Positions 13,761-57,432 of a stretch of DNA of 64,000 nt are shown here, in pieces. The stretch comes from Terriglobus albidus (GTDB lineage Bacteria > Acidobacteriota > Terriglobia > Terriglobales > Acidobacteriaceae), in assembly GCF_025685425.1 (NCBI RefSeq), contig NZ_JAGTAS010000054.1:62001-126000 (forward strand). Direction: 5' to 3'. The notes under the pieces are model-generated. The model was given only the letters and a program-made list of their open reading frames with translations, was not told the DNA's origin and did no database searches. A program made the position numbers and the translations under genes. Position 1 is the stretch's first letter. Every line of letters begins with the position of its first letter.

Positions 13761-13870
13761 GCGCATTTTCCCTGTTGCTGGGTACTCCGGAAGGGTGTGC
13801 AGCGGCGTTTTCATTGCGGAAAACGCCATAAATGCGGGATGCTCTGACTGCACCTACAGGGAAAATGCTC
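13761..13870 (-). repeat. MITE-like palindromic repeat, copy A
   Basis: Ends GCGCATTTTCCCTG (13761-13774) and CAGGGAAAATGCTC (13857-13870) are near-perfect complements. A second hairpin (GGCGTTTTC...GAAAACGCC) lies in the middle. The sequence order is reversed relative to copies B, C and F. TA dinucleotides flank both ends. It sits just upstream of the DUF1801 start. Confidence 0.9.
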
Positions 13871-13929
13871 TACCGGCTTCAATTTCACTGCATCCGGAGC
13901 AAACCTGCAACATGGCAGCACACGATCGC

Positions 13930-22379: not shown

Positions 22380-22490
22380 GAGCATTTTCCCTATAGGAGT
22401 AACGTAGGCATTCCGCATCCATGGGCGTTTTCCGCAATGAAAACGCCGCTCACTCCTGGTCCGGGATACCCAGCAACAGGGAGAATGCTC
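22380..22490 (+). repeat. MITE-like palindromic repeat, copy B
   Basis: Starts GAGCATTTTCCCTATAGG and ends CAACAGGGAGAATGCTC. The inner hairpin GGGCGTTTTCC...GAAAACGCC is intact. It occupies the gap between the divergent thiL and M23 peptidase genes. TA follows the right end and TG precedes the left. Confidence 0.9.
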
Positions 22491-31207: not shown

Positions 31208-31319
31208 GAGCATTTTCCCTGTAGGTATGGAGTAGGGCTTTCGCATCTATGGGCGTTTTCCGCAATGAAAACGCCGCCGCACGCCCCTTTCGGGATACCC
31301 AGCAACAGGGAAAATGCTC
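31208..31319 (+). repeat. MITE-like palindromic repeat, copy C (112 bp)
   Basis: Ends GAGCATTTTCCCTGT and ACAGGGAAAATGCTC are perfect complements (the right end reads CAACAGGGAAAATGCTC). It is an intact copy. The 11-mer CTACAAGGTGA occurs on both sides (31183-31193 and 31319-31329). It lies between the divergent DUF457 and 31347 genes. Copy D is inverted 285 bp further on. Confidence 0.93.
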
Positions 31320-31346: not shown

Positions 31347-31901
31347 ATGCACCCGCTTCCATCGACCCATGAAGAGATTGCGGCTTTCGTGTCGGCATTC
31401 GAAGCCGGGACTCTCCCGAAAGAACGTTGGACGCATGCCGCTCATATTCTGAGCGGTGCGTGGTATGTCCACGTACTCGGCCCTGAAGCGGCACTCACGG
31501 AGATGAGGCGGCATATCCGCGCCTATAACGAAGCTGTGGGCACGCAAAACACCGATAGCAGCGGGTATCACGAGACCATTACGGTCTTCTGGATCAGGAT
31601 GCTGGAGCATTTTCACTGTTGCTGGGTATCCCGGAAAGAGCGTGCAGCGGCGTTTTCATTGCGGAAAACGCCCATAGATGTGGAAGCCCTGCACTACGCC
31701 TACAGTGAAAATGCTCTGGCAGCAGAACTCGCCCGATCTCCTGAGGTAACACGCGCGGCCTTTGTTACCGAGGCGGTCGAACACTTTGGTCCGCAACGCG
31801 ATATTTTGACGCGTTACTACAGCTTCAACGTTGTGAAGTCGACCGAAGCCAGGCGCACGTGGATTGAGCCTGATTTGATGGCGATTGGAGCGAACGAATA
31901 G
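31347..31901 (+). CDS. Conserved hypothetical protein interrupted in frame by a mobile repeat
   Basis: The 184-residue protein has an N-terminal part (RWTHAAHILSGAWYVHVLGP, IRAYNEAVGTQNTDSSGYHE) and a C-terminal part (REDI-type FGPQRDILTRYYSFNVV) that I recall as one uncharacterised family in which SGYHETxTxFW continues directly into a helix. Here the continuity is broken after IRML by 38 codons encoded by repeat copy D (EHFHCCWVSRK to YSENAL), after which AAELARSPEV resumes in frame. Removing the insert restores IRMLAAEL. The product may still fold with a loop insertion, or may be non-functional. GAGAGG lies upstream of the ATG. Confidence 0.7.
   Translation: MHPLPSTHEEIAAFVSAFEAGTLPKERWTHAAHILSGAWYVHVLGPEAALTEMRRHIRAYNEAVGTQNTDSSGYHETITVFWIRMLEHFHCCWVSRKERAAAFSLRKTPIDVEALHYAYSENALAAELARSPEVTRAAFVTEAVEHFGPQRDILTRYYSFNVVKSTEARRTWIEPDLMAIGANE
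31605..31716 (-). repeat. MITE-like palindromic repeat, copy D, inside a coding sequence
   Basis: It carries the same order as copy A: GAGCATTTTCACTGTTGCTG at the left and CTACAGTGAAAATGCTC-like sequence at the right. Both ends have a matching C-to-A / G-to-T change (TTTCACTG and CAGTGAAA), so the pairing is preserved. TG flanks both ends. Counting one duplicated flank, the insertion adds 114 nt (31605-31718) and keeps the host frame open. Confidence 0.9.
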
Positions 31902-33522: not shown

Positions 33523-33924
33523 ATGCGCATTCGAGCATTTTCCCTGTTGCTGGGTGTTCCGCTCACCGTTGGCCTCAGCGGCTGCGAAAAACCAATGACT
33601 CCGGAAGACGTCACCTACAAAAACACCGGTGATTTCTATATCGACCGCGTGCAGCCCATCCTGCAGACCCGATGCTATCGCTGCCACGCCGGCCTGAACC
33701 GCGAGAGCGGCCTTCGGGTCGACAGCCGCGCTTACATGCTGAAAGGCGGCAAACACGGCACGGCGCTGGTACCCGGCGATCCGGAAAAGAGCCTGATGAT
33801 CAAGCTGGTGCGGCACGAAGGCCCCAAGGACGACCCTATGCCTATGCCGAACCGCCGTGGCAAGCTTCCGGAACAAGAAATCCGCGATCTGGAACGCTGG
33901 GTCAAAGAAGGCGCTCCCGAATAG
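33523..33924 (+). CDS. Lipoprotein c-type cytochrome-like protein (PSCyt1-like domain)
   Basis: The 133-residue protein starts MRIRAFSLLLGVPLTVGLSG with lipidated Cys21, followed by a cytochrome c domain: CYRCH (Cys51, Cys54, His55) for covalent haem, and PMPMP near 106-110 supplying a likely axial methionine. The C-terminal helix EQEIRDLERWVKEGAP is typical of planctomycete-type haem domains. It would act in periplasmic electron transfer or as an anchored redox subunit, but no oxidase or dehydrogenase gene is adjacent. Codons 4-13 coincide with the terminal sequence of the dispersed repeat. Confidence 0.85.
   Translation: MRIRAFSLLLGVPLTVGLSGCEKPMTPEDVTYKNTGDFYIDRVQPILQTRCYRCHAGLNRESGLRVDSRAYMLKGGKHGTALVPGDPEKSLMIKLVRHEGPKDDPMPMPNRRGKLPEQEIRDLERWVKEGAPE
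33533..33561 (-). repeat. Terminal fragment of the MITE-like repeat within a signal peptide
   Basis: GAGCATTTTCCCTGTTGCTG plus GGTGTTCCG matches the left end of copies A and D for 29 bp; the rest of the element is absent. It encodes RAFSLLLGVP, the hydrophobic core of the cytochrome lipoprotein signal. Confidence 0.7.
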
Positions 33925-34651: not shown

Positions 34652-35032
34652 AAGAAGCCTCCGGAATCTTTAGGTCTAGGAATTTGACGCGCCTGCAACG
34701 CCAAACGGCTCGGCACGCAGACGAAAGTATAGCAATTTCGCAGGATCATTGGCTGGATTCCTCCCTGCGATACGCGGAAAGACGCCCCTATGCCCCGAAA
34801 CGGGCACAGTAGAGCGTCTCCCTGCTGCCAGATATTCCGGAAGGGGTGTGCGGCGGCATTTCATTCAGGAACGCCCATCGATGCGGAAGCCCTACACTAC
34901 ACCTACAGGGAAACTCTGTGGCCGATAAGCCAACCGAAGGGGGGTGCTTTCGCATCCCATCTCCCATCAGAACAACATTTTATGTTGCAATGTTGATTGC
35001 CCGGCATAGGGCATGTAAGGAGTTCTGCCTGA
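34652..35032. other. Gap between divergent infC and response regulator genes
   Basis: This 381-bp gap holds the infC leader, the degraded repeat copy E (34812-34917), and an AT-rich segment with AACATTTTATGTTGCAATGTT near 34973-34993 upstream of the response regulator. AAGGAG lies 11 nt before the ATG at 35033. No gene was recognised. Confidence 0.5.
34812..34917 (-). repeat. MITE-like palindromic repeat, copy E (degraded)
   Basis: Starts GAGCGTCTCCCTGCTGCCAG and ends CTACAGGGAAACTCTG. Several changes in both ends and in the inner hairpin (GCATTTCATTCAGGAACGC) break the pairing, so it is the oldest-looking copy. Confidence 0.8.
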
Positions 35033-56262: not shown

Positions 56263-57432
56263 ATGTCGACTGCTCGCATAGCCCCTTGCGTCTTAAAGCA
56301 TTTTCCCTGTAGGTACAGAGTAGGGCGTCCGCATCCATGGGCGTTTTCCGCAATGAAAACGCCGCTGCACGCCTTTTCCGGGATACCCAGCAACAGGAAA
56401 AATGCGATAAAACGCCTGGCGATGATCTGGCTCATCGTTGCGGCACTTCCTCTGCTCTTCTTTGATAGCGCTATCGCGTACGCACGTCCCGCGATGCAAG
56501 CGAGCCTCAGTACAGAACGTACCGCCAAACCTGTACCGGCGACGACGCAGCAGATGTATCGCAAGCTGATTCAGCAAGCCGAACAGCGAAATGATCCACC
56601 TGCGCGACAAGGCTATCTATGGGCGGTACTGGCCGCGTCCTATCACGACATCGGCGATATTGCCGGTTCACAACATGCCTATGAACGCGCATTGCCCTTG
56701 CTGGCACAATCGCCGCAGTCACGCGACAACTATGCCACAGCCCTCGATAATCTTGGGAGTATCTATCTCGAGCTCGGCAATATTGCCGACGCAGAGAAGG
56801 TGAGGACACAGGCCTTTCATCTTCGCGAAGAGATGGGCAATCCCATTGACCTTGCCCGTGGCCACGAACATCTCGCCGAGGTGCTGCTGGCGCGCCATCG
56901 TTTCAAAGAGGCAGAGCAGCATGCTCGTGCCGCCTACGACACGCTCTCTGTCAATCCGGAGCCCGATGATATGGATGCTCCTACGGCCGAGCACCCGCAG
57001 TACACGGCGAGGCACGGCAACACCATGCTCGCCGCATTGATCACGCTGGTCTTTGCAAAATGCAACCAATCGGAGCTCCAGGAGTGTCTGCAGGCAGCAA
57101 AGCAAGCCGACGAAGTTGCAAGGAAGGAGTTCCCTTCCGGATCGCTGGAACAGGCACACGCCGCTATGGCGTTAGGCTTTGCGCAGTGGAAGACAGGAGA
57201 TGTCTCCACCGCTGATCAGACCTTGCGTAGCGGCATGGCCATGATGAAGTCAAGGCTCGGCGAAGGCCATCCGCTCGTACTTGATTCGATGTATGAATAC
57301 CGGGAGTTCCTGCAGGCACAGCACCGCAAGGCGGACCTCTCATCGCTCGATCATCAGATCAGGGATGCGAAAGAACATCGTCCGGCGGCGGCGTGCGCGA
57401 ATTGCACGATTAGTGTGTTTGCATTGCGGTAG
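56263..57432 (+). CDS. TPR-repeat protein with an in-frame mobile repeat near its N-terminus
   Basis: The ATG at 56263 has a strong GAGGAG 8 nt upstream. Codons 1-12 read MSTARIAPCVLK, then about 38 codons come from repeat copy F, then KRLAMIWLIVAALPLLFFDS continues as a signal-anchor. Without the insert the protein would read VLKRLAMIWLIV, a normal n-region. TPR units cover about 110-240 (YLWAVLAASYHDIGDIAGSQ, LDNLGSIYLELGNIADAEKV, GHEHLAEVLLARHRFKEAEQ) and 290-350. The product is about 389 residues and ends CANCTISVFAL. Translation might instead start at ATG 56422. It is probably a periplasmic scaffold; partners are unknown. Confidence 0.72.
   Translation: MSTARIAPCVLKHFPCRYRVGRPHPWAFSAMKTPLHAFSGIPSNRKNAIKRLAMIWLIVAALPLLFFDSAIAYARPAMQASLSTERTAKPVPATTQQMYRKLIQQAEQRNDPPARQGYLWAVLAASYHDIGDIAGSQHAYERALPLLAQSPQSRDNYATALDNLGSIYLELGNIADAEKVRTQAFHLREEMGNPIDLARGHEHLAEVLLARHRFKEAEQHARAAYDTLSVNPEPDDMDAPTAEHPQYTARHGNTMLAALITLVFAKCNQSELQECLQAAKQADEVARKEFPSGSLEQAHAAMALGFAQWKTGDVSTADQTLRSGMAMMKSRLGEGHPLVLDSMYEYREFLQAQHRKADLSSLDHQIRDAKEHRPAAACANCTISVFALR
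56297..56407 (+). repeat. MITE-like palindromic repeat, copy F, inside a coding sequence
   Basis: Starts AAGCATTTTCCCTGTAGG and ends CAACAGGAAAAATGCG. The inner hairpin GGGCGTTTTCC...GAAAACGCC is intact. TAAA occurs on both sides (56294-56297 and 56408-56411), so the net insertion is 114 nt and the reading frame of the host gene is kept. Confidence 0.88.

Follow-up and report, generated by a model that had tools for sequence, protein, structure and literature searches.

The reading frame of a conserved hypothetical gene of Terriglobus albidus (ORF 31347–31901 of the window, by which is meant the whole stretch of 64,000 nucleotides that was analysed) was found to be extended by a palindromic repeat. 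Probably a MITE-like transposon of 112 bp, itself non-autonomous, recently jumped into a leucine codon (CTG) of a dispensable gene. That the insertion exists and is in frame was confirmed; its effect is probably neutral or slightly harmful, the inserted residues may have a coding role, and tolerance of the insertion by the cell is weakly indicated. It is a rare in-frame event, though one with precedent. The host genome (G000) was compared with that of a sister (G001) and with further genomes, which carry other G-numbers.

The interrupted gene

The reading frame was checked and contains no stop across the repeat; the 112-bp element together with a 2-bp duplication of TG adds 114 nt, or 38 codons (Table 1). 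A stop-free, in-frame insertion in a conserved hypothetical gene and a duplicated flank had both been predicted from the letters of the window, and both are borne out, the ORF being open through 31605–31718 and TG standing on either side of the element. When the insert is removed the ORF has 146 codons, which is the length of the orthologue in G001, G010, and G008 (143 in G018). The residues gained by the 184-aa protein include TPIDVEALHYAYSENALAAELAR. The region 31600–31722 was predicted to fold as single-stranded DNA at −33.5 kcal/mol (z −5.9), with none of 200 shuffled sequences folding equally well.

No Pfam or NCBIfam family was matched by the 184-aa gene, and a PDB fold search with the model of the 146-aa sister protein returned 142 matches at E ≤ 10 and none at E ≤ 0.001. 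An Rfam scan of the 64-kb window gave nothing above the gathering threshold. Residues H30, H33, Y74, H75, T77, I78, T79, and F81 are invariant across the homologues of this gene, a set of His, Tyr, Thr, Ile, and Phe that gives the impression of a metal or catalytic site.

Table 1. Position of the insertion, its host ORF, and other copies of the element in the window.
Feature	Position	Strand	Basis or remark
184-aa ORF, conserved predicted all-helical family	31347..31901	+	carries insertion
112-bp palindromic MITE-like element, copy D	31605..31716	+	repeat matches, empty site in G001
Target dinucleotide TG, left copy	31603..31604	+	flank comparison, empty site
Target dinucleotide TG, right copy	31717..31718	+	flank comparison, empty site
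Left terminal inverted repeat, 15 bp	31605..31619	+	partner 31702–31716; position 11 is the A of the A-T variant
Right terminal inverted repeat	31702..31716	+	pairs with 31605–31619
Inner hairpin GGCGTTTTC-ATTGCG-GAAAACGCC	31649..31672	+	DNA fold, copy alignment
Neighbouring copy upstream of gene	31208..31319	−	orthologous copy in G001, both flanks TA there
Intergenic copy	22380..22490	−	empty site in G001
Copy overlapping called 5′ end of gene	56296..56405	−	
Intergenic copy	13763..13871	+	G001 site empty, no TA there

Homologues of the gene

A scan of contigs with the 146-aa protein of G001 yielded 20 homologous loci, those of G008 and G010 among them. The 38 residues are absent at the junction in all 20, and likewise in the four closest members of the genus (G001, G008, G010, and G018), whose proteins are of 143–146 aa. 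A gap of this size exactly at the site had been put forward as the check on the original prediction; the two findings named as speaking against it, homologues that carry the insert and a lack of homologues spanning the junction, were not encountered among the 20 loci. Of the two nearest homologues (86% identity), one comes from a MAG of Acidobacteriaceae and the other from a MAG of Acidobacteria. The records are titled Acidobacteria, Bacteroidota, Anaerolineae, and others, with Phycisphaerales, Anaerolineaceae, and Bacteroidota among the farthest. Within the genus the gene was matched in 10 of 19 genomes, G000 included, and no match was found in the other nine, three of which are less than 90% complete. 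In the more distant members G003, G004, G005, G007, and G013 the match was split into two pieces.

The element family

The element has terminal inverted repeats (TIRs) of the sequence GAGCATTTTCCCTGTTGCTGGG, and at least 44 repeat matches, this copy counted, were found among those listed for its own genome (E 1.5e-68 to 1.1e-23; scores were computed for 40 of 417 candidates). When up to one mismatch was allowed, the terminal motif was counted 427 times in G000 and 273 times in G001, compared with no occurrence of the reversed-pattern control in either. A census of 1,998,275 bases of G000 (loci L051–L070 and L154–L233, copies with E above 1e-6 being left out) recorded 157 copies, of which 137 are full length; extrapolation gives approximately 480 copies per genome. 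Among those dropped from the census is a decayed copy at window position 33533, which had earlier been placed inside a called 133-aa ORF. It spans 33533–33618 and has a fuller counterpart in G001 (B5:117394); a second decayed copy lies at 34817–34915. Runs of like-oriented copies separated by a few bases were also observed (three copies at G000:C38:5275–5618 and two at G000:C39:124973–125200).

When 150 genomes of the family were queried with the element, nine matched, namely G000, G001, G132 (at least five matches at 77%), and six with a single match each. The 184-aa query also gave more than 150 matches in each of G008 and G010, which lie outside this sample, nearly all of them through the element. 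The repeat is thus short (112 bp), bears 15-bp TIRs, is too small for a transposase, and is present in many copies (157 in 2.0 Mb), as is characteristic of MITEs. It is a MITE-like family unmatched to any described one, although of a kind already known (RPE, QMITE, Correia, ERIC, and RUP). No description of the family was found among the open-access papers listed for MITEs and palindromic repeats in Acidobacteria, as judged from titles and the beginnings of abstracts.

Target site and empty alleles

Both flanks are TA in 60 of 97 distinct full-length copies (orthologous copies of G000 and G001 being counted separately) and TG in two, of which copy D is one. In 0.8 Mb of G000 and G001 together, 26 of 45 copies were comparable between the genomes; 14 of these sites are empty in the other genome, one of them retaining a 31-nt remnant, and 12 are shared, the shared copies being counted from both sides. 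Several empty alleles have a single TA where the occupied allele has it doubled or altered. For the copy at window position 22380 the unoccupied sequence is CAATAAAATG, and in the occupied allele the left flank is TG and the right flank TA. TA is missing from the site in certain empty alleles (e.g., A28:116541 and A55:75763). A Y-TA-R target was seen in 37 of 56 copies off stop codons (1.2-Mb set), compared with 18.4% of 6907 intergenic TA sites. The family therefore shows both the target site duplication and the empty sites expected of a MITE.

Against the preferred explanation stand the empty alleles elsewhere that lack TA, the absence of an autonomous element around the transposase genes searched, and the target of copy D, which is TG where TA is the usual one. 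The uninterrupted site reads TTGG in G001, CTGA in G010, and CTGG in G008 and G018. As TG is present in all four close relatives, a TG target is the simplest reading, although a TA target mutated on both sides is possible.

Search for a mobilising transposase

A transposase acting in trans would recognise the TIRs and duplicate the 2-bp TA target in the style of IS630/Tc1-mariner elements. Duplication of TA agrees with such an origin; TIRs shared with an IS630 element were not found at the DDE_3 loci fetched. No autonomous element with these TIRs was present around the fetched DDE_3, DUF4096, DDE_Tnp_1, and Y1_Tnp genes. Near the first three, TIR-like matches were limited to one in L140 and two, with the spacing of the MITE, in L143. 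At seven DDE_3 (PF13358) loci no TIR of the element was found within three mismatches, those of G000 and G001 having other TIRs. An IS630-type element with TA flanks was observed in G008 (L111), the TIR of which shares only its first five bases (GAGCA) with the MITE. DUF4096 (PF13340) gave one match, in G010, and DDE_Tnp_1 (PF01609) gave none in G000. No match to PF07592 was obtained anywhere, controls included, and this search is hence uninformative. A TIR pair 1 kb apart in G000:C23 was considered as a candidate autonomous element and proved to be two separate copies.

REP sequences go together with a RAYT gene. Genes of the Y1_Tnp family are present in four genomes (G000, G001, G008, and G010) and absent from G018, which is also how the element is distributed among these five. 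A RAYT/REP origin was nevertheless rejected: five of 22 Y1_Tnp loci have the element within 1.5 kb, which is about the expectation from its density, and the unit is 112 bp long, REP units being palindromes of 20–40 bp in the text consulted of one source (PMC3733652).

Age of the insertion and its effect on the protein

Copy D is identical to its closest copies at 107 of 112 positions, and differs from the majority of the ten nearest at positions 34, 35, and 94, where each of its letters is present in other copies. Between G000 and G001 the gene has a dN of approximately 0.06 and a dS of 0.58–0.71. The closeness of the copies and this dS together indicate that the insertion probably took place late on the G000 branch, from which it follows that the low dN/dS mostly reflects the time before insertion.

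Structure prediction with AlphaFold2 (21-row alignment) gave a pLDDT of 89.6 and a pTM of 0.82 for the 184-aa protein, and 94.6 and 0.89 for the sister without the insert. In successive ten-residue blocks across residues 91–130, where most of the insert lies, pLDDT was 89, 76, 58, and 72, the lowest being at 111–120. The model has a helix at 76–106, a turn, and a helix at 112–130, compared with a helix at 76–92 in the uninterrupted sister. One possibility raised by this model is that the insert forms a helical hairpin projecting from helix 76–92. By insertion into CTG the leucine codon would be duplicated, and the 37 residues then lying between the two leucines may protrude as a helical hairpin or as a loose loop from the middle of that helix. 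No benefit to the cell would be required.

The same insertion may instead have set the gene on its way to a pseudogene, with helix 76–92 broken and the protein inactive, the event being too young for stops or frameshifts to have accumulated. This is a real possibility, if a somewhat doubtful one, and it overlaps with the preferred explanation, which makes no claim on the activity of the protein. It is favoured by the position of the site in mid-helix in the predicted model and by the nine genus genomes in which the gene was unmatched. The synonymous/nonsynonymous changes 3′ of the site (8/6 on the G000 branch, 6/1 on the G001 branch) also speak for it, the numbers being small. Conversely, the frame remains open and the predicted core is retained; the counts for the whole gene (21/9 on the G000 branch and 18/5 on the G001 branch) probably belong mostly to the time before insertion and so say little.

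Placement relative to genes and stop codons

The 157 copies of the G000 census were assigned as follows: 91 lie away from called genes, 57 coincide with a stop codon (one end of the copy being no more than 3 nt from a called stop), seven overlap a called 5′ end, and two are inside a gene (a called gene reaching more than 45 nt past both ends). The gene caller was a simple codon-score one, on whose calls the 57 stop-codon copies rest, and the seven 5′ copies have uncertain starts. As the 184-aa gene went undetected by the caller at the initial threshold and was called at the following one, short or atypical genes that bear insertions may escape it. Gene interiors hold two of 157 copies, set against the 52% of YTAR sites that are coding. 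Of the 155 copies that do not lie within a gene, 57 are on stop codons, compared with 17% of non-coding YTAR sites (binomial p 6e-9, which is approximate given the simple gene calls and the relatedness of copies). The share of copies on stop codons is about twice that of the YTAR sites in non-coding DNA.

At the stop-codon copies, TA followed by the first base of the element (G) restores TAG. For two such copies (A55:25156 and A28:118623) an empty allele with the stop codon intact was seen. Beyond the far duplication the next base is a purine (A or G) in 29 of 30 fused copies; as this is also so in 44 of 56 others (1.2-Mb set), the test is a weak one. Either selection or target choice may lie behind the placement bias. 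Three read-through candidates (C28:826560, 55097, and 301897) were rejected, lying between called genes, opposite one, or beside another copy.

A second copy inside a gene

The other copy inside a gene lies at G000:C28:14278–15054 (L174), in a gene for a 258-aa protein with an SLT transglycosylase domain (PF01464, 1.4e-26). The junction reads TSLTPAEL in G001, G008, and G010 compared with TSL[ERAAAFSLRKTPIDAEALHDTRRENAL]TASEL in G000, and the gene of the more diverged G018 likewise lacks the inserted segment. The gene was matched in all 19 genus genomes, with the junction compared in five. The insert separates the N-terminal part of the protein from the SLT domain. Near its left end this copy lacks 33 nt, which is divisible by three; as the gene is well conserved, such an in-frame deletion suggests that coding copies can persist in some cases, an observation that weighs against the preferred explanation. 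Both in-gene copies are read in the same frame, entered via the duplicated leucine codon. As 1267 of 2867 coding YTAR sites are in leucine phase, the occurrence of two out of two there is not significant. Among 81 copies at 60 further loci (40 of them chosen for long open frames, and some overlapping the census), a lenient codon test applied to both sides was passed by five rows, and none resembled an insertion in the middle of a gene.

Reading frames and covariation of the palindrome

In 66 of the 97 copies the number of inserted nucleotides is divisible by three, the commonest insertion being 112 + 2 = 114 = 3 × 38 (62 copies). At least one of the six frames is open in 65 of the 66, with three open in 39, two in 20, four in four, one in two, and none in one. 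The consensus has three open frames, compared with means of 1.1 for shuffled sequences and 1.5 for random perfect palindromes; three or more were open in 7% of shuffled sequences and 14.6% of random perfect palindromes of like composition. The element is therefore mildly richer in open frames than expected by chance. Given that 114 is 3 × 38 and that two or three of the six frames are usually open, an in-frame landing is ordinary for this element. The insert would have been tolerated because the element and its target duplication together make 114 nt and the leucine-entered frame is normally free of stops.

The claim that a bacterial MITE-like unit serves here as a coding insertion stands for the in-frame insertion and is not supported for function: the insertion appears recent, falls in mid-helix of the uninterrupted model, and is of a kind whose open landing is ordinary, and the gene was unmatched in nine of 19 genus genomes. 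It had also been proposed that changes at the two ends of the element compensated each other after insertion. This was not upheld, as the A-T pair at 11/102, replacing C-G, is a subfamily variant found in seven of 62 copies of 112 nt, copy D and six others, and was thus most likely already in the source element. Frame and covariation counts used these 62 copies of exactly 112 nt, with the other 35 left out. In the outer 22 pairs, 45 cells are changed on both sides, compared with no more than 23 in any of 500 shuffles and up to seven when the pairing was slid by one to three positions. Of these cells, 39 come from the neighbouring pairs 9-104, 10-103, and 11-102, and they are not independent because they are inherited by subfamilies. 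The palindrome does covary between copies, and for copy D this most likely took place before the jump.

An alternative is that the element is a protein-compatible cassette comparable to the RPE, in which selection holds the 3n length and the open leucine frame and the two coding copies are retained and working. We consider this unlikely, although several observations agree with it. In two unrelated genes the element is read in one and the same frame (..ERAAAFSLRKTPID.EALH...ENAL), and the leucine-entered frame is open in 56 of 62 copies in sense and 58 of 62 in antisense, the second coding phase in 47 of 62 in sense. The length of 114 nt in most copies and the loss of 33 nt from the SLT copy, both multiples of three, point the same way. 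Set against these are the mere two of 157 copies in genes, the second coding phase in antisense (open in one of 62 copies), the frequency with which random perfect palindromes have three or more open frames, and the 81 further copies, where, homology aside, no mid-gene insertion was seen. That the element is tuned to be harmless, by Y-TA-R entry, by rebuilding TAG at stops, and by offering an open 38-codon cassette at leucine codons, is similarly improbable. If it were so, the in-gene copies would be raw material for new protein segments, as has been proposed for the RPE, and an RPE-like supply would exist in another phylum and in a 6-Mb genome.

Much less probable still is an assembly artefact, in which a copy of the repeat was wrongly joined into the gene. 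G000 is a draft of 58 contigs and the repeat is abundant in it; however, the sequence to the left and right of the insert belongs to the same gene and keeps the order found in G001, and copy D is unlike every other copy compared. It is also only 112 bp long, which usual sequencing reads or read pairs exceed. That the 38 residues are ancestral and were lost by the relatives can practically be dismissed, since they are missing from all 20 homologues, whose record titles name Acidobacteria, Bacteroidota, Anaerolineae, and others, and the same DNA is a repeat at other places in G000.

Comparison with known palindromic elements

In-frame palindromic insertions are best known from Rickettsia, the genomes of which are small and decaying. 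A counterpart of the RPE has reportedly been described in Wolbachia. In the parts consulted of the two reports used here (PMC2229807, PMC10969869), RPEs are palindromic units of approximately 105–150 bp inserted in frame in conserved genes, with 19 genes having such insertions and nearly half of the RPEs lying in ORFs. The T. albidus element resembles them as a palindromic unit of similar size found in frame in conserved genes. It differs in belonging to another phylum, Acidobacteriota, and in not being frequent in genes (two of 157 copies); furthermore, the target site duplication of the RPE is entered as "?" in the table seen of PMC2229807, whereas the present element duplicates TA.

In the sections used of the Coxiella report (PMC5896051), QMITE copies contact the stop codons of ubiB and CBU_2020 (its Table 2), and others are in frame in mid-ORF in the hypothetical genes CBU_0752a and CBU_1269a. 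QMITE1 and QMITE2 are thus like the present element in having copies that touch stops and others in frame within ORFs; the direct repeats of QMITE2, compared here by description, are unique to each copy and are not TA (PMC5896051). The RUP of pneumococcus, according to the part seen of PMC2229807, is a 107-bp intergenic MITE with TA-containing targets attributed to IS630-Spn1. It is described there as having stops in all six frames, and no partner IS was found for the T. albidus element. The 107-bp form of Correia/NEMIS and ERIC/RU-1 have, in the same portion of that source, terminal TA and open frames, the Correia form being fused to ORFs. By description they are like the T. albidus element in size, in TA, and in open frames, and differ in their hosts.

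T. albidus belongs to another phylum and has a genome of 6 Mb, in which two same-frame cases occur; sister genomes hold empty alleles, and more than a third of the copies lie on called stops, so that this system lets target preference and selection be counted directly against each other.
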